A stretch of 64,000 nucleotides of DNA from Ramlibacter lithotrophicus (GTDB lineage: Bacteria > Pseudomonadota > Gammaproteobacteria > Burkholderiales > Burkholderiaceae_C). Positions 1,691 to 11,555 of the stretch are shown piece after piece (within the stretch, counting starts at the first letter, position 1; every line of letters begins with the position of its first letter). The translations under genes were made by a program, and so were the position numbers. The notes below the pieces were generated by a model. It searched no databases. It saw only the letters and a list, made by a program, of their open reading frames with translations, and was not told the DNA's origin. The stretch is from the NCBI RefSeq assembly GCF_012184415.1, contig NZ_VTOX01000001.1, positions 930,001-994,000 on the forward strand. The letters are read 5' to 3'.

Positions 1691-2134
1691 ATGGCAACTG
1701 CGAAAAAAGCCGCCGCGAAGAAGGCACCGGCGAAGAAGGCTGCCGCCAAGAAGGCGGCACCGGCCAAGAAGGCCGCGGCGAAGAAGGCCCCCGCGAAGAA
1801 GGCCGCCCCGGCGAAGAAGGCCGTCGCGAAGAAGGCGGCTCCGGCCAAGAAGGCAACTGCGAAGAAAGCCGCCCCGGCGAAGAAGCGCACCCCCAACGCG
1901 GCGTTCATGAAGCCCCTGACCCCCGACGCGTCGCTCGGCGCCGTCGTCGGTGCGGCGCCCCTGCCGCGCACGGAAATCGTCAGCAAGCTGTGGGCTTACA
2001 TCAAGAAGAACAAGCTGCAAGACCAGAGCAACAAGCGCATGGTCAACGCCGACGACAAGCTGCGCGTGCTGTTCGGCAAGAACCAGGTCTCGATGTTCGA
2101 GATGGCCGGCCTCATCGGCAAGCACGTGAAGTGA
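1691..2134 (+). CDS. SWIB/MDM2-domain protein with histone-H1-like lysine/alanine tail
   Basis: The 147-residue product has two parts. Residues 1-65 are almost only K, A and P in repeats of the AKKA/PAKK type, like the C-terminal tail of histone H1, and should bind DNA without sequence preference. Residues 68-147 form a SWIB/MDM2 domain (from FMKPLTPDASLGAVVG through LPRTEIVSKLWAYIKKNKLQ to SMFEMAGLIGKHVK), a fold known from chromatin-remodelling subunits and fused to chlamydial topoisomerase. Such small fusions are common in betaproteobacteria and are taken to be nucleoid-associated. An AGAAGGA ribosome site lies about 8 nt before the ATG and a strong terminator follows, so it is a monocistronic and probably well expressed gene. 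Confidence 0.9.
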   Translation: MATAKKAAAKKAPAKKAAAKKAAPAKKAAAKKAPAKKAAPAKKAVAKKAAPAKKATAKKAAPAKKRTPNAAFMKPLTPDASLGAVVGAAPLPRTEIVSKLWAYIKKNKLQDQSNKRMVNADDKLRVLFGKNQVSMFEMAGLIGKHVK

Positions 2135-2211: not shown

Positions 2212-3945
2212 TCATTTCTTCAGCGCGTTCTCGCGGATGGCGCTCAGCGTGCCCCGGGTCGAGATCACCTCCGGATCCAGCATCACCTCGATCAGCGTGC
2301 CTTCCGGGCGCTCCAGCGCGGCGAGCAGCGCCGGCTCGAACTCGGCGGTCGTCGTGATGCGCACCCCCGCATAGCCATACGCACGCGCCAGGCCCACGAA
2401 GTCGGGATTGGCCAGCGGCGTGCCGCTGATGCGCGCCGGATACTCGCGCTCCTGGTGCATTCGGATGGTGCCGTACATGCCGTTGTTCAGGAGCACGATG
2501 ATGGACTTGCCGCCGTGCTGCACGGCCGTCGCGAGTTCCTGCCCGTTCATCAGGAAGTCGCCGTCGCCGGCCATCGTCAGCACCGGCCGCCCGGTCACGA
2601 GGCTGGCCGCGATGCCGGCCGGCACGCCATAGCCCATCGCGCCATTGGTGGGCGCCAGCTGCGTCCGGTGCCCCTTGGCGAGGCCGTGGTGCCTGAAGAA
2701 GCGGTGCATCCAGCTGGCGAAGTTGCCGGCGCCGTTGGTGAAGACCGCGTCCGCCGGCAGGTGCTTCTGGATCAGCGACACGATGGCCGGCATGTCGATG
2801 CTGCCGGGCAGCGCCTGCGGCACCAGGTTCGCGTCGTAGTCGGCGCGTGCGGCCTGCGCCCAGTCGCGCCAGGGCACCTGCGGCGGCGCCTCCAGCGCTT
2901 CGAGCGCCACGGCCGCCGCCCCCATCGATGCGTTGATCGCGAGGTCGGCGCTGTAGACGCGGTTCAGTTCCTCGGCGCCGCCGTGGATGTGCACCAGTTG
3001 CTGGGCCGGCCGCGGCACCTGCAGCAGCGTGTAGCCGCCGGTCGTCATTTCACCCAGCCGCGGGCCGACAGCGATCACCAGGTCGCTCTCCCTGATGCGC
3101 GCGGCCAGCTTCGGGTTGATGCCGATGCCCACGTCGCCGGCATACAGCGGGTGGTGGTTGTCGAAGATGTCCTGGAAGCGGAAGGCATTGCCCACCGGCA
3201 GCGACCACTTTTCCGCGAAACGCTGCAGCGCCTGCGCGGACTCGACGGTCCAACCGCCGCCGCCGGCGACCACGAACGGCTTGCGCGCCGCGAGCAGCAG
3301 GTCGCGCAACCGGGACAGCGACCCCGGATCGGGCCAGGCCTGCGAGGCTTCGACGCGCGGCAGCGGGCGCGCCCGGGTCGTCTTGGTGAGCATGTCTTCG
3401 GGCAGCACCACGACCACCGGACCCGGCCGGCCGTTCATCGCCGTGGCAAAGGCACGGGCGACGTACTCCGGAATGCGGTCGGGGTCGTCGATGCGCTCCA
3501 CGCGCTTGGCCAGCCCCTTGGTGCTGGGGCCGAAGAAGCTGGTGTACTCGACTTCCTGGAACGCCTCGCGGTCGCGCTGGTCGCCGGCGACGTCGCCCAC
3601 GAACAGCACCATCGGCGTCGAGTCCTGGAAAGCGGTGTGCACGCCGATCGAGGCGTTGGTGGCGCCCGGCCCGCGGGTGACGAAGCAGACGCCGGGACGG
3701 CCGGTGAGCTTGCCCTGGGCCTCCGCCATGAAGGCGGCGCCGCCCTCCTGCCGGTTGATCACGAAGCCGATCTTGTCGCGGTACGCGTGGAAGCCGTCCA
3801 GGACGGCGAGGTAACTCTCGCCGGGCACGCCGAAGACGCGCGGCACGCCTTGCGCGACCAGGCACTCCACCAGCAGGTGGCCGGCGAGCTGGCCCGGATC
3901 ACGCGCCTCGGGGGCGCCGGAGGGGTTGCTGTTCGATGAAACCAT
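2212..3945 (-). CDS. ThDP-dependent enzyme, acetolactate synthase-like
   Basis: The 577-residue protein shows the three-domain layout of the acetolactate synthase/pyruvate oxidase family. The N-terminal pyrimidine-binding domain has the catalytic glutamate in NRQEGGAAFMAEA, the central domain is FAD/nucleotide-fold-like, and the C-terminal domain has the ThDP motif starting GDGDFLMNGQELA and ending in LLNNGMYG. It makes or breaks a C-C bond next to a keto group, but the substrate is unknown. No regulatory subunit gene is adjacent, so a biosynthetic ALS role is unlikely. It is divergent from the TetR gene, and an operator shared with the downstream operon lies just upstream of its ATG, so it most likely belongs to the same catabolic module. 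Confidence 0.85.
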   Translation of the reverse strand: MVSSNSNPSGAPEARDPGQLAGHLLVECLVAQGVPRVFGVPGESYLAVLDGFHAYRDKIGFVINRQEGGAAFMAEAQGKLTGRPGVCFVTRGPGATNASIGVHTAFQDSTPMVLFVGDVAGDQRDREAFQEVEYTSFFGPSTKGLAKRVERIDDPDRIPEYVARAFATAMNGRPGPVVVVLPEDMLTKTTRARPLPRVEASQAWPDPGSLSRLRDLLLAARKPFVVAGGGGWTVESAQALQRFAEKWSLPVGNAFRFQDIFDNHHPLYAGDVGIGINPKLAARIRESDLVIAVGPRLGEMTTGGYTLLQVPRPAQQLVHIHGGAEELNRVYSADLAINASMGAAAVALEALEAPPQVPWRDWAQAARADYDANLVPQALPGSIDMPAIVSLIQKHLPADAVFTNGAGNFASWMHRFFRHHGLAKGHRTQLAPTNGAMGYGVPAGIAASLVTGRPVLTMAGDGDFLMNGQELATAVQHGGKSIIVLLNNGMYGTIRMHQEREYPARISGTPLANPDFVGLARAYGYAGVRITTTAEFEPALLAALERPEGTLIEVMLDPEVISTRGTLSAIRENALKK

Positions 3946-3957
3946 GGCTTGACTTTA

Positions 3958-3977
3958 TTAACTGTACGGTGAATTAT
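3958..3977. promoter_or_regulatory. Putative TetR operator O1
   Basis: The site TTAACTG-TAC-GGTGAATTAT lies between the divergent ThDP and TetR genes. It is a quasi-palindrome around GTAC with half sites TTAAC and GTGAA. The same sequence recurs in inverse orientation at 4675-4694, differing only in three central bases. Its position 12 bp from the ThDP ATG and just before the TetR ATG suits repression of both genes, including autorepression. Confidence 0.7.
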
Positions 3978-3983
3978 GCGGCC

Positions 3984-4634
3984 ATGCCAAGAGACGCTGT
4001 CCCGGCCGCCGAAGAGCGCCAGCGCGATGCCGACCGCTCGCAGAGCACGATCTTAGCGGCGGCCCGCGACGAGTTCGCGGAGCACGGCCTGGGCGGCGCG
4101 CGGATGGAGCGCATCGCCGAGCGCGCCGGCGTCAACAAACGGCTGATCTACTACTACTTCGAGGACAAGGACCGCCTGTTCCAGGCCGTGCTGGAACAGG
4201 CCTACCGGCACATCCGGGACGAGGAGCGGCAGCTGAACCTGCTGGCGCTCAGGCCCGTGGACGCGGTGCGGCGGCTCGTCGAGTTCACCTGGGACTACTA
4301 CCTCGCCCATCCCGAGTTCCTGTCGCTGCTCAATAGCGAGAACCTGCAGGCCGCGCGGCACCTGGAGAACTCGCAGCGGGCGCGCGAGATGAACTCGCCG
4401 CTGATCGCCACGCTGGGCGAGATCCTCGAGCGCGGCCGCAAGGAAGGGAGCTTCCGCGGCGGCATCGACCCGCTGCAGCTGTACGTCTCGATCGCCGGGC
4501 TGGCCTACTTCTACCTGTCCAACCACTACACCCTGTCGGCGATCTTCGGCCGCGACCTCATGACGGCGAAGGCACGCAACGAGCGGCTCACGCACATCTG
4601 CGACGTGATCCTCGGGTATGTCCTGAGGAACTGA
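3984..4634 (+). CDS. TetR-family transcriptional regulator
   Basis: The N-terminal helix-turn-helix of TetR regulators is plain at residues about 17-60 (ILAAARDEFAEHG, MERIAERAGVNKRLIYYYF). The ligand domain follows to residue 216 and resembles the TetR_C group found in RutR-like and similar regulators. The frame is open to 3936, but an ATG there would lie inside the operator region; ATG 3984 (MPRDAVPAAEERQ) is the better start. It likely represses both the divergent ThDP gene and the following Bug-Gfo-DUF993-isomerase operon through the two matching sites at 3958 and 4675, and is released by an unknown pathway intermediate. Confidence 0.88.
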   Translation: MPRDAVPAAEERQRDADRSQSTILAAARDEFAEHGLGGARMERIAERAGVNKRLIYYYFEDKDRLFQAVLEQAYRHIRDEERQLNLLALRPVDAVRRLVEFTWDYYLAHPEFLSLLNSENLQAARHLENSQRAREMNSPLIATLGEILERGRKEGSFRGGIDPLQLYVSIAGLAYFYLSNHYTLSAIFGRDLMTAKARNERLTHICDVILGYVLRN

Positions 4635-4674
4635 GGCGCGTCCACCCGCTTGCGGACTGCCATTTCCTGCCCCC

Positions 4675-4694
4675 ATAATTCACCAATCAGTTAA
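4675..4694. promoter_or_regulatory. Putative TetR operator O2
   Basis: This is the inverse copy of O1: read on the minus strand it is TTAACTG-ATT-GGTGAATTAT, identical to O1 except for the three central bases. It lies 15-34 bp before the GTG start of the binding-protein gene, in the position of a promoter, so a bound repressor would block the whole downstream operon. Confidence 0.7.
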
Positions 4695-4708
4695 TTAGGA
4701 GACACATC

Positions 4709-5689
4709 GTGAACATCACCCGTCGCACGTTGGCAGCTTCCCTCGCGAGCCTGGCGCTGCTGTCGCCGCTCGCCGCGCAGGCGCAAGCCGGCTACCCGAA
4801 CAAGCCCATCCGGGTGATCGTGCCCTTCGCCGCCGGCAGCACGACGGACATCATCGCCCGCGCCATCTCCGACAAGATGAGCCAGAGCATGGGCCAGCAG
4901 CTGGTGATCGAGAACCGGGGCGGCGCCAGCGGGACGATCGGCCAGGCCCTGGTGGCGCAAGCGGCGCCAGACGGCTACACGATCATGGTCCATTCGTCGT
5001 CGCACACGGTGAGCCCGTCCACCTTCGCGAAGCTGCCGTTCGACACCGAGCGCGACTTCGCCGGCGTCACGCCGATCTCGAGCACCCCCAACGTCCTGGT
5101 CATCTCGCCGGCCAGGAACATCCGGACGCTGAAGGACCTGCTGGCGGCGGCGCGGGCCAAGCCGGGCAGCATGAACTTCGCGTCGGCCGGCCAGGGCAGC
5201 GCCACCCACCTGAACGCGGAGAAGTTCAAGCTCGCGGCGAAGATCGAGGCCACCAACATCCCCTTCAAGGGTTCGGCGGAGGCCGTCACGGAAGTCATGG
5301 CCGGACGCGTCGACTACTACTTCTCGCCGATCGCGCCGGTCATCGGCCACATCCGCACCGGCCAGCTGCTGGCGCTGGCGGTGGACTCGCGCAAGCGCGC
5401 GAGCGCACTGCCCGACGTGCCGACCACGGCCGAAGCGGGCGTGCCAGGCTCGGAGTTCAACTTCTGGATCGGCATGATGGCTCCCGCCAGGACACCGCGC
5501 GAGATCGTCAACCGGCTGCACGACGAGGTGGTCAAGGCCCTGAACACGCCCGAAGTCAAGGAACGCTTCGCCGCCCTGGGCGCCGATGCCTGGACGCTCA
5601 AGCCGGAGCAGTTCGACGCCTACATCCGCGACGAGATCAAGTCCAACGCCGTGCTGGTCAAGGCCGCCGGCCTGGAAGTCCAGAAATGA
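4709..5689 (+). CDS. Bug/TctC-type tripartite transporter solute-binding protein
   Basis: A 326-residue periplasmic protein. A Sec signal peptide occupies residues 1-26 (twin-Arg start TRRTLAA, hydrophobic core, cleavage near AQAQA). The mature part has the Bug family markers YPNKPIRVIVPFAAGSTTD near its N-terminus and APDGYT in the first lobe. These proteins bind carboxylates or other small organic molecules, and many are orphans without TctAB membrane partners; none are nearby. The start is GTG at 4709, chosen because TTAGGAGA ends about 6 nt upstream and an ATG is lacking. It is the first gene of the operator-controlled operon, so its ligand is a candidate substrate of the module. Confidence 0.9.
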   Translation: MNITRRTLAASLASLALLSPLAAQAQAGYPNKPIRVIVPFAAGSTTDIIARAISDKMSQSMGQQLVIENRGGASGTIGQALVAQAAPDGYTIMVHSSSHTVSPSTFAKLPFDTERDFAGVTPISSTPNVLVISPARNIRTLKDLLAAARAKPGSMNFASAGQGSATHLNAEKFKLAAKIEATNIPFKGSAEAVTEVMAGRVDYYFSPIAPVIGHIRTGQLLALAVDSRKRASALPDVPTTAEAGVPGSEFNFWIGMMAPARTPREIVNRLHDEVVKALNTPEVKERFAALGADAWTLKPEQFDAYIRDEIKSNAVLVKAAGLEVQK

Positions 5690-5738
5690 CGACGGGCGGC
5701 GGCGGCGCGCCGGCGGCGACCTGAAAGGACCGAGCTTC

Positions 5739-6902
5739 ATGCCCACCCAACGACTTGGACTGATCATGCACGGCGTCACCGGACGCATGGGCATGAACCA
5801 GCACCTGATCCGCTCCATCGTGGCGATCCGCCAGCAGGGCGGCGTGACCCTGGCCAACGGCGACAAGGTGATGCCGGACCCGATCCTGATCGGCCGCAAC
5901 GCCGAGAAGATCGAGGCCCTGGCCCGCGCCCACGGCATCGAGCGCTGGGGCACCAGCCTCGAACAGGCCCTGGCGAACCGCGAGGACACCGTGTTCTTCG
6001 ACGCGGGGACCACCCAGATGCGCCCCACCCTCCTCGCGCAGGCCATCCGGGCCGGCAAGCACGTCTATTGCGAGAAGCCGATCGCGACCAACCTCAACGA
6101 GGCGGTGGAGATCGCCCGCCTCGCGCAAGGCTCCGGGCTCAAGCACGGCGCCGTGCAGGACAAGCTGTTCCTGCCGGGCCTGCGCAAGCTCGACATGCTG
6201 CGCCGCGCCGGCTTCTTCGGCCGCCTGCTGTCGCTGCGGCTCGAGTTCGGCTACTGGGTGTTCGAAGGCGACCTGCAGCCGATCCAGCGTCCGAGCTGGA
6301 ACTACCGCGCCGAGGACGGCGGCGGAATCATCCTGGACATGATGTGCCACTGGCGCTACGTGCTGGACAACCTGTTCGGCGAGGTGAAGTCCATCTCGTG
6401 CCTGGGCGCGACGCACATCCCGCAGCGCTGGGACGAGGCCGGCCGGCCCTACCCCGCCACCGCCGACGATGCGGCCTACGCCACCGCGGAACTGGTGGGC
6501 CACGGCGGCGAGCCGGTCATCGCGCAGCTGAACATGTCGTGGGCGACGCGCGTGCGCCGCGACGACCTGGTCACCTTTCACGTCGACGGCACCCATGGTT
6601 CGGCCGTGGCCGGCCTGCAGGAGTGCCGCGCGCAGAGCCGCGTCACCACGCCCCGGCCGGTCTGGAACCCGGACGTGAAGCAGACGATGAACTTCTTCGA
6701 CCAGTGGCAGGAAGTGCCCGACACCCAGGTGTACGACAACGGCTTCAAGATCCAGTGGGAGCACTTCATCCGCCACGTGGTGGACGACGAACACTACCGC
6801 TGGACGCTGCCCGAAGGCGCCAAGGGCGTGCAGCTGGTGGAAGCGGCGCTGCAAAGCTGGAAGGAGCGGCGCTGGATCGACGTGCCGCCGCTCGCGATCT
6901 GA
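5739..6902 (+). CDS. Gfo/Idh/MocA-family NAD(P)-dependent oxidoreductase
   Basis: A 387-residue protein with an N-terminal Rossmann fold (GLIMHGVTGRMGMN) and the family signature HVYCEKPIATNLNEA, whose EKP lysine is the catalytic residue. The C-terminal half is the substrate-binding alpha/beta domain. Homologues oxidise hydroxyl groups of sugars, inositols and related compounds. The open frame extends upstream to 5586, but ATG 5739 has GAAAGGA at good distance and begins where homologues do. It lies 49 bp after the binding-protein gene and 8 bp before the DUF993 gene, clearly co-transcribed. Confidence 0.88.
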   Translation: MPTQRLGLIMHGVTGRMGMNQHLIRSIVAIRQQGGVTLANGDKVMPDPILIGRNAEKIEALARAHGIERWGTSLEQALANREDTVFFDAGTTQMRPTLLAQAIRAGKHVYCEKPIATNLNEAVEIARLAQGSGLKHGAVQDKLFLPGLRKLDMLRRAGFFGRLLSLRLEFGYWVFEGDLQPIQRPSWNYRAEDGGGIILDMMCHWRYVLDNLFGEVKSISCLGATHIPQRWDEAGRPYPATADDAAYATAELVGHGGEPVIAQLNMSWATRVRRDDLVTFHVDGTHGSAVAGLQECRAQSRVTTPRPVWNPDVKQTMNFFDQWQEVPDTQVYDNGFKIQWEHFIRHVVDDEHYRWTLPEGAKGVQLVEAALQSWKERRWIDVPPLAI

Positions 6903-6910
6903 GAACGGCC

Positions 6911-8095
6911 ATGGCACTCGCACTGCACCTGCCGACGCCCGCCGGCGCCCTCGCCGCCTACCAGTTGCGTGGCACCAGTCCCGCCCGGCCGGTGGCGGCA
7001 ATCAGGTTCGACCGCATCGCGTACTCCGCGGCGCACGTGGTGGCCGATCCGCTGGCCGCCGTCGATCCCTGGATCCAATGCGCCGTGGACTGGGACGCGA
7101 CGATCGCGTACCGGCGGCACCTCTGGTCGCTGGGCCTGGGCGTCGCCGAGGCCATGGACACCGCCCAGCGTGGCATGGGGCTGGACTGGCCCACCTCGCT
7201 GGAGCTGATCCGCCGTTCGCTCGATGCGGCCAGGGACGTCCCCGGGGCACTGGTCGCCTGCGGCTGCGGCACCGACCACCTTTCGCCCGAGGCCGCGCAT
7301 TCGCTCGACGACGTGATCCGCGCGTACGAGGAACAGATGGCCGCCATCGAGCGGCTCGGCGGCCGGCTGATCGTGATGGCCAGCCGCGCGCTGGCACGGG
7401 TCGCGAAGTCGCCCACCGACTACGAGAAGGTCTACCAACGCATCCTGTCGCAGGCCAGGCAGCCGGTCATCCTGCACTGGCTGGGCGACATGTTCGACCC
7501 GGCCCTGGCCGGCTACTGGGGCACCAAGGACATCGACGCCGCCATGGACACGGCGCTGGGCATCATCGCCGCGCACGCCGACAAGGTCGACGGCATCAAG
7601 ATCTCGCTGCTGGACAAGGACAAGGAGATCGCGATGCGCCGGCGCCTGTCGCCGGGCGTACGGATGTACACCGGCGACGATTTCAACTACGCGGAGCTGA
7701 TCGCCGGCGACGGCCATGGCACGGCGACCACGCATGGCCGCAGCGATGCGCTGCTGGGGATCTTCGACGCGATCGCGCCCGCGGCCAGCGCCGCGCTGGG
7801 CGAACTCGCGCAGGGGAACGTCGAGAAGTTCCACGCGATCCTGGGCCCCACGGTGCCGCTGTCGCGCCACATCTTTGCGGCCCCCACCCGCTTCTACAAG
7901 ACGGGCGTGGTCTTCATGGCGTGGCTCAATGGCCACCAGCGCCACTTCACGATGGTCGGCGGCCAGCAGAGCGCGCGCTCCCTCGTGCACTTCGCCGAGC
8001 TGTTCCGGCTGGCCGACGCGGCCAACCTGCTGGAGCAGCCGGAGCTGGCCGTGCGTCGCATGAAGACGCTGCTGGCGCTGCACGGCGTCGACTGA
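6911..8095 (+). CDS. DUF993-family protein (TIM-barrel, dihydrodipicolinate synthase-like)
   Basis: A 394-residue soluble protein that I recognise as the DUF993 family, often described as dihydrodipicolinate synthase family. Markers are VVADPLAAVDPWIQCAVDWD near residue 35, CGCGTDHL near 115 and KISLLDKDKEIAMRR near 235; the lysine in KISLLDK is a candidate Schiff-base residue, by inference. No activity is established that I can name. The gene overlaps nothing but sits 8 bp after the dehydrogenase and 5 bp before the isomerase gene. Gfo/Idh, DUF993 and an isomerase together suggest stepwise oxidation, isomerisation and aldol cleavage of a polyol or sugar-like compound. Confidence 0.8.
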   Translation: MALALHLPTPAGALAAYQLRGTSPARPVAAIRFDRIAYSAAHVVADPLAAVDPWIQCAVDWDATIAYRRHLWSLGLGVAEAMDTAQRGMGLDWPTSLELIRRSLDAARDVPGALVACGCGTDHLSPEAAHSLDDVIRAYEEQMAAIERLGGRLIVMASRALARVAKSPTDYEKVYQRILSQARQPVILHWLGDMFDPALAGYWGTKDIDAAMDTALGIIAAHADKVDGIKISLLDKDKEIAMRRRLSPGVRMYTGDDFNYAELIAGDGHGTATTHGRSDALLGIFDAIAPAASAALGELAQGNVEKFHAILGPTVPLSRHIFAAPTRFYKTGVVFMAWLNGHQRHFTMVGGQQSARSLVHFAELFRLADAANLLEQPELAVRRMKTLLALHGVD

Positions 8096-8100
8096 CACCG

Positions 8101-8991
8101 ATGCGCGACTTCTCGCACGACCACCGCTGGCTCTCGATCAATACCGCGACAGTGCGCCGGTCGCATGGCGTCGACCTGCCGTTGCCGCGGATCATCGACG
8201 CATGCGCGCGGCGCGGGATCCGCGCGATCTCCCCTTGGCGCGACCAGGTCGCCGCGGCCGGCCTGGACACGGTGTCGAAGCTCGTGAAAGCGCATGAGCT
8301 GGAGCTGTCCGGCTACTGCCGCGGCGGCATGTTCCCCGCCGCCGATGCGCCGGGGCTTGCCGCGGCACGCGACGACAACCGGCGCGCGGTCGACGAAGCG
8401 TGCGAACTGCGCGCGGCCTGCCTGGTGCTGGTCGTCGGCGGCCTGCCGGGCGCGCTCGCCGGGCGGCCCGCGCACAAGGACATCGCCGGAGCGCGCGCGC
8501 AGGTGCGCGACGGAATCGCCGAACTGCTCGAGTACGCGCGGCCGCGCCGCATGCCGCTGGCGATCGAGCCGCTGCATCCGATGTATGCCGCCGACCGGGC
8601 CTGCGTCAACACGCTGGAGCAGGCCCTGGACCTGTGCGAGGAACTGGATCCGGCCCGCGACCCGGCGGGGCCGCCCGCGCTGGGCGTGGCGGTGGACGTC
8701 TACCACGTGTGGTGGGACCCGAAGCTGCAGGCCCAGATCGGTCGCGCCGGCCGGCGGCGGCTGCTGGCCTTTCACGTGTGCGACTGGCTCACGCCGACCA
8801 CCGACCTGCTCAACGACCGCGGCATGATGGGCGACGGCGTGATCGACATCCCGCGCATCCGCGGCTGGGTCGAGGCGCAGGGCTATGCCGGCTACAGCGA
8901 AGTGGAGATCTTCTCCACCGGAAACTGGTGGCGCCGCGGCCACGACGAGGTGCTGGACACCTGCATCGCGCGTCACCGCAGCGCCGTGTGA
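8101..8991 (+). CDS. Sugar phosphate isomerase/epimerase-family protein
   Basis: A 296-residue protein of the xylose-isomerase-like TIM-barrel family (AP-endonuclease family 2 fold). Metal-ligand-type residues appear in AIEPLHPMY, VAVDVYHVWWDP, FHVCDW and the late glutamate of SEVEIFS. Members isomerise or epimerise keto-sugars and inositol derivatives (compare IolE, IolI, Hyi). ATG 8101 follows the DUF993 stop by 5 bp; no other start fits as well. It is the last gene of the TetR-controlled operon. A GC-rich inverted repeat (GCCGGC-CTC-GGCCGGC) just after the stop may end transcription. Confidence 0.82.
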   Translation: MRDFSHDHRWLSINTATVRRSHGVDLPLPRIIDACARRGIRAISPWRDQVAAAGLDTVSKLVKAHELELSGYCRGGMFPAADAPGLAAARDDNRRAVDEACELRAACLVLVVGGLPGALAGRPAHKDIAGARAQVRDGIAELLEYARPRRMPLAIEPLHPMYAADRACVNTLEQALDLCEELDPARDPAGPPALGVAVDVYHVWWDPKLQAQIGRAGRRRLLAFHVCDWLTPTTDLLNDRGMMGDGVIDIPRIRGWVEAQGYAGYSEVEIFSTGNWWRRGHDEVLDTCIARHRSAV

Positions 8992-9015
8992 CGCCGGCCT
9001 CGGCCGGCACGAGGC

Positions 9016-9561
9016 TCAGCCGACGGCCTGGACCCGCTGCACCGTGTTCGTCGTGCGCACCGGGGCGGCGGCGGGGGTGGAAGCGCCGTACTCGATCTCG
9101 CCGGAGAGCTGGCCGCCCTCCTCGATCACCACCTTGCCGTAGCGCACGCGGCCGGTCACCTTGCCGGTGGCGTAGATCACGAGCTTCTGCCGCACCGTCA
9201 GCGTGCCGTCGAACGAGCCGCGGATCTCGGCGATGTCGATCTCGGCCGACCCCTTGAAGGAGCCGCGCTCGGAAATCTGGATCACGCGCGAGTCCATGGT
9301 GGCCTCCACCGAGCCTTCGACGACCAGCGTGTCGCAATCGGTGATCTCGACGCCCTTGAGCTTGATGTTGGGTCCGACGGTCAGCTTGCTCTCGCCTTCA
9401 GCGGTGGACACCGTGCTTGCGGCGGCGGGGGCCGGAGCCGCGGTGGCCGGCGTGGCGGCCGTGCTCGCGACCGTGCCAGTCGCTGCCGCGTTCGGGCCGG
9501 TCTGGCGCTGGGCGTAGGTGTCCGGCTCGCGCTTGTTGAAGAAGGGAGACTGCAGTGCCAT
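9016..9561 (-). CDS. Bactofilin-family polymer-forming protein
   Basis: A 181-residue protein. Residues 1-58 are a flexible Ala/Pro/Thr-rich tail, residues 60-160 are the bactofilin (DUF583) beta-helix core, seen as short repeating strands (LTVGPNIKLKGVEI, GSVEATMD, GSFKGSAEIDIAEI, GSFDGTLTV, GKVTGRVRYGKVVI), and a second tail follows. Bactofilins self-assemble without nucleotide into filaments at the inner membrane and position cell-wall or polarity proteins. No M23 peptidase gene, a common partner, is adjacent. It is divergent from the DUF1444-like gene. Confidence 0.9.
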   Translation of the reverse strand: MALQSPFFNKREPDTYAQRQTGPNAAATGTVASTAATPATAAPAPAAASTVSTAEGESKLTVGPNIKLKGVEITDCDTLVVEGSVEATMDSRVIQISERGSFKGSAEIDIAEIRGSFDGTLTVRQKLVIYATGKVTGRVRYGKVVIEEGGQLSGEIEYGASTPAAAPVRTTNTVQRVQAVG

Positions 9562-9785
9562 GGTGAACTTCCTCTGAGTGGCGTTGAATGAGGTGCCGAT
9601 GCTACGGACGAGATCCGCCGCGTTCCAGACCGGCGGCGCAAGATCGGTAACAAACGTCGTTGGCTCGTTGCGACGCCACCATCGGTGCGCGCGACTTATT
9701 CCGCGCGTTGCATCCGGCGGCCTTGCCGCGCGGGTGGCGGCGCGTCACCATGTGTGTTCGAGGATGGGACCGGAGGAGAAGCCGC

Positions 9786-10505
9786 ATGGGCAAGAGCAGT
9801 CATCACCGCTCCAGGGTCGCGCGCATCGCGCTGGCATGGGTGCTCGCCTGCGGCAGTGCCGCCGCGGGACAGGCCGGATCCGACGCGGAAGCCATAGCCA
9901 CCGGCGCCGGCAACCTGCTCGCGGTGCTGCGCGAGTCGGCGGGCGAGAACAAGCTGGACGAGGCACTGCGGCCGTATGGGCCGCTGCAGGCCACGACGCC
10001 GCAGGGGCGGCGAGTGGAGTTCGAGACCAGCTGGTACCAGTACCTGGGCGACATGCACATCCGGCTGGTGTTCGACGGCGAGCGCACCCTGCAAAGCGCT
10101 TCGCCCGACGACCTCGCCCGGCTGCAACTCACCCCCGACGAGGCGCTGCAACTGGCGGTCGCGAACCTGCGCCGGGTCTACGGCGAGCCGCACGTGCAGC
10201 CATGGAGCGGCGGCCTGATGCAGGTGAAGGCCGCCGCGCCGGAGTTGACCAGCAGCTACTTCCTCGACCGCGAGTTCTGGCAGGCGCTGCAGACCCGCCA
10301 TCCGGACGGATTGGTGGTCGCCGTGCCGCGCCGCGGCGGCCTGGTGTACGCCAGCGCGCGCGATGCAGCCGCCGTCGAGAGCCTGCGCTTCAGCGCGGCC
10401 GCTCTCTACGCCGGCGGCCCCGGCGCGCGCCTCTCTTCGGCGCTGTACCTGTTCAAGGACGGCCGGTGGTCGGTCTTCCAGGCGCCGCAGCCGCCGGCCG
10501 ACTGA
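9786..10505 (+). CDS. Secreted DUF1444 (YtpQ-like) protein
   Basis: A 239-residue protein starting at ATG 9786, preceded by GGAGGAGAAG. The frame is open further upstream but lacks a ribosome site. A Sec signal peptide covers residues 1-28 (RIALAWVLACGSAAAGQA). The mature part matches the pattern of DUF1444/YtpQ: a LTPDEALQLAVANLRRVYG helix, a short strand region, then DGLVVAVPRRGGLVYA and a final SALYLFKDGRWSVF strand. YtpQ itself is of unknown function and normally cytoplasmic in Bacillus, so an exported version is notable. It is convergent with the following Bug gene, with a hairpin between them. Confidence 0.65.
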   Translation: MGKSSHHRSRVARIALAWVLACGSAAAGQAGSDAEAIATGAGNLLAVLRESAGENKLDEALRPYGPLQATTPQGRRVEFETSWYQYLGDMHIRLVFDGERTLQSASPDDLARLQLTPDEALQLAVANLRRVYGEPHVQPWSGGLMQVKAAAPELTSSYFLDREFWQALQTRHPDGLVVAVPRRGGLVYASARDAAAVESLRFSAAALYAGGPGARLSSALYLFKDGRWSVFQAPQPPAD

Positions 10506-10522
10506 AGCGGCCCGGAACGAGC

Positions 10523-10545
10523 GCATCGCCCCTGGTGGGCGATGC
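10523..10545. terminator. Hairpin between convergent genes
   Basis: A 9-bp perfect stem GCATCGCCC-CTGGT-GGGCGATGC lies between the convergent stop codons of the DUF1444-like and Bug genes. It has no real T-run on either strand, so it may be a bidirectional stop aided by Rho or a 3'-end stabiliser. Confidence 0.5.
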
Positions 10546-10550
10546 CCCGG

Positions 10551-11555
10551 TCAGTCCACCTTGGCGCCGGACAGCTTGACGGCGCGGCCCCACTTCTGGA
10601 TCTCGGCAGCGACGAAAGCGTCGAACTGCGGCCCGGTGGTGGGCGCCGGCACCGAGCCGCGTTCGGTGATGAAGCGCACCATGGGCTCGCTGCTCAGGAT
10701 GGCGTTCACCTCGCGCTGCAGGCGGGCGACGATGTCCGGGCTGGTGGCGCGCGGTGCCATGAGGCCGAGCCAGCCGACGGCCTCGAAGTTCTTCACGCCC
10801 GGGACGCCGGTTTCAGCGACGGTCGGCACGTCGGGCAGCAGCGTCGAGCGGGTGATCGAGGTGACCGCCAGCGGCACGGCCCTTTTCGACTGGATGTGCG
10901 GCAGGGCTGCAGTGACCGAGTCGACCATCAGCGGAACCTGGTTGCCGAGGAAATCGGCCTGGGCGGGCCCGCTGCCGCGGTAGGGGATGTGCGTCACGTA
11001 CAGGCCGGCCATGGCCTTGAACAGCTCGCCCGAGAGGTGTTGCGTGCCGCCGATGCCGGCACTCGCGTAATTGAGTTCGCCCGGCTTCGCCCTGGCACGC
11101 GCGGCAAGTTCCTTCATGGAACGGATGCCGGCGTCGGGGTGGGCCAGGAACACCAGCGGCACCTTCGCGACCAGCGAGATCCCGACCAGGTCCTTCGTCG
11201 GATCGAAACTCACCTTCGGGTACAGCGTCTGGTTGACGGCCATCGCGCTGCCGGCCACCAGCAGCGTATAGCCGTCCGGCGCCGAGCGCACGACGAATTC
11301 GGAGCCGATGTTGCTGCCGGCACCGGCCTTGTTTTCGACGATCACCGGCTGGCCCAGGCGCTTGCCGAGTTGCTCGGCGAGCGCGCGCGCGAAGATGTCG
11401 GTCGCCTGTCCGGTCGGGAAGGGGACAATGAACTTGATCGGCTTGTCGGGCCACTCGGCGCGCGCCGGTTGCGAGAAGAGGGCCGCGCCGGCGAACAGGG
11501 CTGCGGCCAGCGCCGCCAGTCGGCGGCGCTGGAGCGGTTGCTTGGGAGAAGTCAT
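10551..11555 (-). CDS. Bug/TctC-type solute-binding protein (orphan)
   Basis: A 334-residue periplasmic binding protein of the same family as the one at 4709 but clearly diverged. The signal peptide spans residues 1-33 ([18 protein letters not shown], cleavage near PARA). The mature protein begins [20 protein letters not shown] and has APDGYT later. It probably captures a carboxylate or aromatic acid. No membrane subunits or catabolic genes are next to it, as is usual for the many orphan Bug proteins of Burkholderiales. The upstream neighbour is a histidine phosphatase on the same strand, 126 bp away. Confidence 0.9.

Follow-up and report, generated by a model that had tools for sequence, protein, structure and literature searches.

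A predicted TetR operator code may join two catabolic loci, one of them carrying a DUF993 gene, in Ramlibacter

Catabolic regulons repressed by TetR-family proteins are a known kind of system, and the locus described here, a TetR-family regulator gene with its catabolic neighbours at 2212-8991 of a 64,000-nucleotide stretch of Ramlibacter lithotrophicus DNA (assembly GCF_012184415.1, contig NZ_VTOX01000001.1, positions 930,001 to 994,000; this whole stretch is called the window below), can be set beside described systems of this and other kinds. With the catabolic repressors of the TetR family the window regulator shares the TetR_N domain, the geometry of autoregulation and sites at target promoters; the nearest NCBIfam model is that of RutR, from which it differs in scoring 54.9 bits against an equivalog cut-off of 368. 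Sinorhizobium meliloti carries homologues of the window isomerase (SMc04130, structure 3ju2) and of its DUF993 protein (SMc04132, structure 4dnh) within SMc04130-SMc04133, genes that appear as table rows in a study of polyhydroxybutyrate (PMC12542648). On pSymB of S. meliloti strain Ak57, TetR is followed by Gfo, DUF993, an enolase-type (mandelate racemase) protein and an isomerase, a set like that of the window; the S. meliloti cluster differs in that a sugar-type ABC transporter lies beside it and in that Bug and thiamine diphosphate (ThDP) enzyme genes are absent from the stretch shown. The glyoxylate-to-glycerate operon gcl-hyi-glxR-glxK, given for Pseudomonas aeruginosa as PA1498-PA1502 (PMC12694930), resembles the window in its ThDP enzyme and PF01261 isomerase, and resembles relatives of the window in a reductase of the hydroxyisobutyrate-dehydrogenase family and a glycerate kinase. 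However, the window proteins and the relatives' reductase score under the models for that operon, and the window ThDP enzyme is nearer acetolactate synthase. In the open-licence literature we found no function for DUF993 (PF06187), and no description of the regulon members reported here, of their operator or of DUF993 chemistry.

A preliminary description of this DNA had proposed that TetR governs a catabolic module through two matching operators, and had left the substrate open. The two 20-bp sites on which it was built, TTAACTGTACGGTGAATTAT at 3958-3977 (plus strand) and TTAACTGATTGGTGAATTAT at 4675-4694 (minus strand), are indeed identical at 17 of 20 positions and differ in three central bases only, and gene calls place them as described, on either side of tetR (3984-4634, plus), ahead of a divergent ThDP-dependent, acetolactate-synthase-like enzyme gene (2212-3945, minus) and ahead of a Bug-Gfo-DUF993-isomerase operon. 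The TetR frame is open from 3936, yet the start conserved among relatives is the ATG at 3984, and site 1 is therefore intergenic, with a gap of 6 nt to that codon; site 2 lies 40 bp past the tetR stop and 14 nt ahead of the GTG start of the Bug gene. We define the predicted operators as operator 1, ATTAACTGTACGGTGAATTAT (3957-3977, plus), and operator 2, ATTAACTGATTGGTGAATTAT (4675-4695, minus). When the window was searched with site 1 at up to three mismatches, the only two matches were the sites themselves, and 100 shuffles gave none. Across all 5,263,905 bases of the genome, the core TTAAC-N6-GTGAA has exactly two occurrences, both at these sites, and the reversed control pattern has none. 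As a pair, the sites are far beyond chance.

The surroundings of both sites have the layout of promoters. Operator 1 occupies the 17-bp spacer of the predicted tetR promoter and overlaps its -10 element. Among the 37 tetR-upstream regions with a site, the -35 element (TTGACT at 3949-3954, plus) reads TTGACT in 35 and TTGAC in 36, and the -10 element (AATTAT at 3972-3977, plus), the first two letters of which belong to the core used for site finding, reads AATTAT in 36 and AATGAT in one; the complete arrangement TTGAC(T/G)-17 bp-AATTAT/AATGAT, with the operator core within the spacer, is present in 36 of 37. Identical or too-short regions, and matches starting away from residue 1, were excluded from this and from the matrix tests below. 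The first in-frame tetR start codon falls 5-7 nt past the -10 element in all 37 regions. For sigma-70 promoters, a -10 element at such a position places the expected transcription start at or beside the start codon, and the tetR mRNA, predicted to begin at the ATG, is therefore probably leaderless; tetR itself is probably autorepressed. At the other site, the Bug operon promoter read from the sequence (TTGCGG-N18-CATAAT, 4650-4679, plus) has a predicted -10 element that overlaps operator 2, and the consensus upstream of Bug genes shows TtGC and tATAATTCACC in those 27 regions, out of 32, that hold the searched motif, again with overlap of -10 element and operator. The predicted promoter layouts at both sites fit repression by occlusion.

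We found that the sites are conserved together with TetR. DUF993 is present in 57 of 147 related genomes, in 47 of 60 genomes of the same genus (its own genome counted), and in 147 of 72,556 plasmid records. We compared 58 loci around DUF993 matches (L031-L088) along with the window, taking as TetR orthologs proteins of at least 58% identity. An ortholog was present in 45 of these loci, the window included in the comparison, and in 38 of the 45 the ThDP gene is divergent from tetR; sites with a matrix score of at least 15 flank tetR on both sides in every one of these 38. The other seven ortholog-bearing loci have both sites in one case, the downstream site only in four (two of them, L056 and L069, being stretches that start with tetR), and no site of at least 15 in two (L057 and L060, with TetR 61-63% identical). 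The exact core is found at the operator 1 position in 42 of 44 tetR-upstream regions. Conservation on the ThDP side was taken from these sites around tetR and not from a ThDP-upstream consensus, which showed the motif in no more than 2 of 42 regions; the probable cause is that gene starts were placed by extrapolation from the window protein, whose N-terminus is longer.

A second set, the named loci, comprised the 80 of 566 with the highest DUF993 similarity, ending at most 10 kb from DUF993; it draws partly on the same genomes as the 58 loci (L089/G052, L091/G001, L093/G028), and its counts are not population frequencies. TetR is present in 61 of the 80, and a site scoring at least 15 lies within 300 bp in 30 of the 31 loci where TetR is at least 57% identical, against none of the 30 below that value. 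Where TetR is 45-53% identical, mostly in Alphaproteobacteria, the gene set is kept without the site. In 13 of these 30 loci we looked for a shared palindrome before the TetR genes and found none common to the 13, six of which have some inverted repeat of their own. The same gene set with TTAAC-N6-GTGAA upstream, for which the preliminary description had proposed to search, thus recurs in Burkholderiales, and its proposal of a TetR-governed module gains support from this conservation. Homologous clusters without the sites, which it had named as contrary evidence, also exist, but only where TetR itself has diverged.

To follow the operator beyond the window we used a matrix built from 41 tetR-upstream sites, the tests before Bug, Gfo, Bug2 and gene A being the only ones held out from training. 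Operator 1 scores 38.6, with the window itself among the training sequences, operator 2 scores 40.5, and every match of at least 5 in the window falls at these two sites. The matrix matched before all 32 Bug genes (18.6-40.5) and before 14 of 51 Gfo genes (13.9-40.5; the other 37 at most 4.0); in 13 of these 14, Gfo comes directly after tetR, and the fourteenth locus (L037) is truncated. Additional exact sites, present in ten genomes (nine as L180-L188, the tenth as L192), led to a separate second operon, composed of gene A (NAD-epimerase family), gene B (PF00701, the dihydrodipicolinate synthase or DHDPS family), a second Bug gene (Bug2), TctB, TctA, a second isomerase gene (isomerase 2) and an enolase-superfamily gene, although not each of these is present in every stretch of L180-L188. 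Matches precede all 26 Bug2 genes (11.1-32.9; 24 of them in second-operon loci and 2 in fused ones) and 17 of 21 gene A starts (8.1-26.9). As a control over 1,071,976 bases of loci and window, in which some loci had been chosen because of a core, we counted 143 matches of at least 8 at target genes (300 bp away or closer) against 6 in the remaining sequence, 140 against 4 at a threshold of 11 and 133 against 2 at 15. A match of 22.4 away from target genes was seen at 10214 of L085, a stretch with no TetR ortholog.

The window genome has a third site, ATTAACCGTTTAGGGAATTA at G000:C9:158656-158675, with one mismatch and a matrix score of 24.3. Behind it, on contig C9 (coordinates in L198), are Bug2 (5705-6709), TctB (6719-7234), TctA (7253-8755), isomerase 2 (8785-9621) and the enolase-superfamily gene (9629-11038). 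The operon thus includes a complete Tct transporter at 5705-8755 (TctC, PF03401; TctB, PF07331; TctA, PF01970), whereas the window Bug gene has neither TctA nor TctB in its own operon; judged by contig ends, the C9 operon lies at least about 350 kb from the window cluster. Elsewhere the two operons are fused. Second-operon genes stand between TetR and Gfo-DUF993-isomerase in L099, L100, L101, L102, L106, L118 and L147, from Hydrogenophaga, Xenophilus, Limnohabitans, Burkholderia and a Burkholderiales metagenome-assembled genome (MAG), and a Ramlibacter MAG (L115) carries gene A-gene B-Bug2-TctA-isomerase 2-enolase-TetR-Gfo-DUF993-isomerase in one stretch. In Polaromonas, Castellaniella, Microvirga and Bradyrhizobium, an ABC transporter (permease, NMT1 receptor, ATPase) is followed by the same enolase family. 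Gene fusion is independent support for linking both operons, and from the third site together with the fusions we take the unit to be a two-locus regulon with three operators; the core claim of the preliminary description holds, while the unit it drew was too small, missing the third operator before the operon on another contig.

Around this core the gene content of the named loci varies. With DUF993 as the query (80 of 80), the isomerase is present in 73, Gfo in 72, the enolase in 48, NMT1 in 31, a Bug like that of the window in 37 (20 at 45% identity or more), Bug2, TctA and isomerase 2 in 16 each, a short-chain dehydrogenase/reductase (SDR) in 9, a hydroxyisobutyrate-dehydrogenase-family protein in 8, gene B in 7 and gene A in 6; the ThDP gene is present in 20, all Burkholderiales by record title. 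The suggestion that the Bug protein offers a handle on the ligand holds only in part, since the 14 Gfo-upstream sites lie directly before Gfo and the loci of other lineages encode an ABC transporter of the NMT1 type. In L090, L091, L096, L101, L110 and L038, Bug, SDR and hydroxyisobutyrate-dehydrogenase-family genes are inserted between DUF993 and the isomerase (no isomerase was seen in the L091 stretch). In the Burkholderiales MAG stretch L106, an amidohydrolase gene (PF04909, 11206-12228) directly follows DUF993, with a homologue in L111; it possibly adds a step.

The products of the regulon belong to families that narrow, without fixing, the chemistry. In the window, TetR has the N-terminal DNA-binding domain PF00440 (61.8 bits against a cut-off of 24) and TetR_C_29; the TctC/Bug periplasmic receptor (4709-5689, plus) matches PF03401 (E 6e-72); the Gfo/Idh/MocA-family oxidoreductase (5739-6902, plus) has 3oqb as its nearest solved structure (E 2e-187); and the xylose-isomerase-like TIM-barrel protein (PF01261; 8101-8991, plus) is closest to 3ju2 (E 9e-99) and 3qc0 (E 1e-98). 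The ThDP enzyme passes the PRK08199 subfamily model (799 against 539 bits), and among solved structures its best match is BbmA (202 bits), with acetolactate synthase at up to 196 and glyoxylate carboligase at 130; IolD and Gcl models are not among the 25 families, out of 54, that the model comparison covered.

The DUF993 protein (6911-8095, plus) matches PF06187 at 629 bits against a gathering score of 24, and its model (mean pLDDT 74) aligns with the uncharacterised 4dnh at Z 48.0 and with dihydrodipicolinate synthases and YagE at Z 27.0-27.9 over 281-286 residues (3flu: Z 27.9, root-mean-square deviation 2.5, 281 residues aligned). On this model its fold is a TIM barrel of the DHDPS/N-acetylneuraminate lyase superfamily, from which it differs in identity (11-16% over the 49 rows below 4dnh), in being about 100 residues longer and in not being matched by PF00701. 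The fold suggests a Schiff-base aldolase. All 6 sequences aligned keep K230, in the motif DGIKISLLD (GIK/GVK), and a GDD that begins 25 residues further on; we take this region to resemble that of the Schiff-base lysine in the superfamily.

The second-operon enolase, modelled in the form of a homologue from L115 (pLDDT 92.6), is nearest to muconate-lactonizing enzyme (MLE; 3dg6, Z 33.2) and dipeptide epimerase (Z 32.8). It shares the fold of the MLE group but differs in length (469-476 residues) and identity (19%), with no NCBIfam model above cut-off. K226, K228, D259, E294, D319 and K342 are invariant in 17 sequences, and the KxK...K pattern is presumably the signature of the MLE group. Enolase-superfamily enzymes of this type act next to a carboxylate. 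Apart from nicotinate, the characterised TctC ligands covered in PMC5812351 carry either two carboxyl groups or some additional group, for example a sulfate or amide. From transporter type and enolase type, therefore, the substrate is probably a hydroxylated, perhaps dicarboxylic, carboxylic acid.

For the lower pathway the evidence comes from neighbours. A glycerate kinase gene lies near DUF993 in 6 of the 12 annotated plasmid loci examined, another lies near DUF993 in Marinobacterium (L133), and some Burkholderiales loci have a reductase nearest to the L-threonate dehydrogenase and tartronate-semialdehyde reductase models, under their cut-offs. The ThDP enzyme, PF01261 isomerase, reductase and glycerate kinase are, we assume, the families of the glyoxylate-to-glycerate operon, and on account of these shared families we propose that DUF993 may release a short hydroxy-keto acid; purely by inference, its product might then pass to glycerate or pyruvate. 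More distant DUF993 genes, on S. meliloti pSymA and in Rhodococcus, Janthinobacterium, Octadecabacter and Roseateles plasmids (L175, L177, L179, L224, L227), stand with CoA-transferase, SDR and aldo/keto reductase genes, and often with acyl-CoA dehydrogenase and glycerate kinase genes too. DUF993-isomerase pairs thus seem to have a place in two pathways or more.

Computation has given us the sites and how far they are conserved, the geometry of the promoters, the folds, and which genes lie behind the sites; beyond this we infer binding, repression, an inducer, each chemical step and the substrate class as follows. Without inducer, TetR would sit on near-palindromic operators of consensus ATTAAC-N6-GTGAATTAT and occlude the promoters that serve tetR and the ThDP gene, the Bug-Gfo-DUF993-isomerase operon and the Bug-TctB-TctA-isomerase 2-enolase operon, until a pathway intermediate released it. 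The acid imported by the Tct transporter, probably hydroxylated and perhaps dicarboxylic, would be rearranged by isomerase 2 and the enolase-superfamily enzyme, and the Gfo/Idh enzyme would oxidise an alcohol group. DUF993 would cleave (or dehydrate) the oxidised product by way of a Schiff base on a lysine, and the short hydroxy-keto acid would be taken onward by the isomerase and the ThDP enzyme in the manner of the glyoxylate-to-glycerate route. That the TetR repressor autoregulates and represses such a two-locus catabolic regulon in Ramlibacter, with the proposed acid pathway, we hold to be the best reading, at a probability of roughly 0.62. The further claim of novelty, namely a new polyhydroxy (di)carboxylic acid pathway with DUF993 as a new class-I aldolase that has a partner isomerase and is fed by an MLE-type enolase, under one TetR operator code spanning two loci fused elsewhere and with a conserved leaderless tetR, is tentative, and we would sooner bet against it in full than for it.

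Several observations weigh against the regulon as drawn. Across 59 genomes of the genus, exact cores number 96, not above the 112 of the reversed control pattern. In the window genome the relaxed core TTMAC-N6-GTKAA gives 6 matches at 3 places against 8 for the control, and the 20-bp pattern with two mismatches gives 5 against 5, with no enrichment; these five rows comprise site 1, site 2 in its direct and its mirrored reading, the C9 site and one on C8. Relatives differ in ThDP gene, in Bug gene and in type of transporter, so that not all of these are essential. The second operon, by its gene content, is reduced in the window genome: gene A and gene B are absent from the C9 operon stretch, and their only close counterparts in this genome are paralogs (62% and 68%) on contig C6 beside a TetR 42-43% identical; four of the 21 gene A regions lack a site, one of them that of this window-genome paralog. 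For the chemistry, K230 is a putative Schiff-base lysine assigned by motif, HWLG stands in DUF993 where the DHDPS tyrosine is expected (by eye), a profile comparison of DUF993 with gene B from shallow alignments gave no usable alignment, and the DUF993 proteins encoded near glycerate kinase are more distant ones (53-61% identity).

Given these motif counts, the argument rests on the positions of the sites. Of the 96 genus cores, 62 lie within 250 bp of a TetR ortholog (48 rows of at least 61% identity; rows at 38-45% excluded), 14 within 1.6 kb of gene B (25 rows of at least 77%; nine at 66-69% and one partial row excluded) and 20 elsewhere. Since the TetR genes with these flanks account for only some 0.02% of the sequence, chance would be expected to put about 0.02 of the 96 cores there. 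At least one core is present in 45 of the 46 genus genomes with DUF993, the exception being G027, where tetR is at a contig end, and in 5 of the 13 without it; the 7 cores of these five comprise two flanking gene B (G036), one preceding a TetR ortholog (G038) and four that look like chance. The relaxed-core place at C3:164999-165014 was rejected, being internal to a long reading frame and having a matrix score under -5. One genome of the genus (G024) has the reversed control pattern 13 times, against 0-7 in the other 58, perhaps through a repeated element.

Other chemistries could be written for the same enzyme classes. A 3-keto-glycoside or anhydrosugar route, in which Gfo oxidation is followed by beta-elimination and hydration by PF01261 enzymes, would suit the gene content, as the operons for levoglucosan and glycoside catabolism treated in PMC10628242 and PMC10066097 are composed of Gfo-type oxidoreductases and two PF01261-type proteins; the portions of these papers that deal with such operons mention no DUF993, enolase member or Tct transporter, the window Gfo scores 46 bits against a levoglucosan dehydrogenase cut-off of 650, and we consider this route unlikely. 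The preliminary description was reminded of inositol breakdown, in which Gfo would be the inositol dehydrogenase, the isomerase IolE or IolI, the ThDP enzyme IolD and DUF993 the final aldolase. The broad enzyme classes agree, and the best NCBIfam matches of Gfo and isomerase 2 are IolG and IolO, both far under cut-off; yet at 57.3 bits against 355 for IolG the analogy is weak, the window isomerase matches no NCBIfam model, the ThDP enzyme falls in PRK08199, and the carboxylate-type transporters and MLE-type enolase behind the third operator would be superfluous for free cyclitols, which makes this cyclitol route quite improbable. Both the inositol and the levoglucosan readings were dropped on NCBIfam model scores. 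That the shared letters are mainly the -35 and -10 elements of constitutive promoters is very improbable, for although the conserved letters overlap TTGACT-N17-AATTAT at site 1 and CATAAT at site 2, the TTAAC/GTGA letters lie in the spacer, where promoter conservation is unusual, site 1 is oriented with the tetR promoter and site 2 against the Bug promoter, the second-operon site of the window genome lies downstream of a promoter-like TTGACA-N17-TAGAGT (by eye), and site conservation ends as TetR identity falls.

Some neighbouring and related genes were noted along the way. The window genome carries a sister cluster at G000:C6:17300-22800 (L199, 4335-9787). Alongside its own TetR (42-43%) it encodes paralogs of gene A (about 61-62%) and of gene B (about 67-68%), together with an NMT1 receptor and the permease of an ABC transporter; it is a related system under another regulator, and similar TetR/gene B neighbours are found in G002, G005, G009 and G055. 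A further TctC/Bug gene at 10551-11555 of the window is on the opposite (minus) strand, with no operator-like site (matrix score of at least 5) nearby. Adjoining the module at 1691-2134 (plus) is a SWIB/MDM2-domain protein gene with a lysine/alanine-rich, histone-H1-like N-terminal part and an HC2 match under cut-off.

DUF993 is widespread, and a structure of it (4dnh) has been solved since 2012. The operator code described here defines a regulon around it and narrows its chemistry, to the company of a Tct transporter, a carboxylate-requiring type of enolase, two isomerases, an oxidoreductase and a DHDPS-fold enzyme. TetR may also serve as a read-out, in that a compound releasing it from the operator would point to the substrate.

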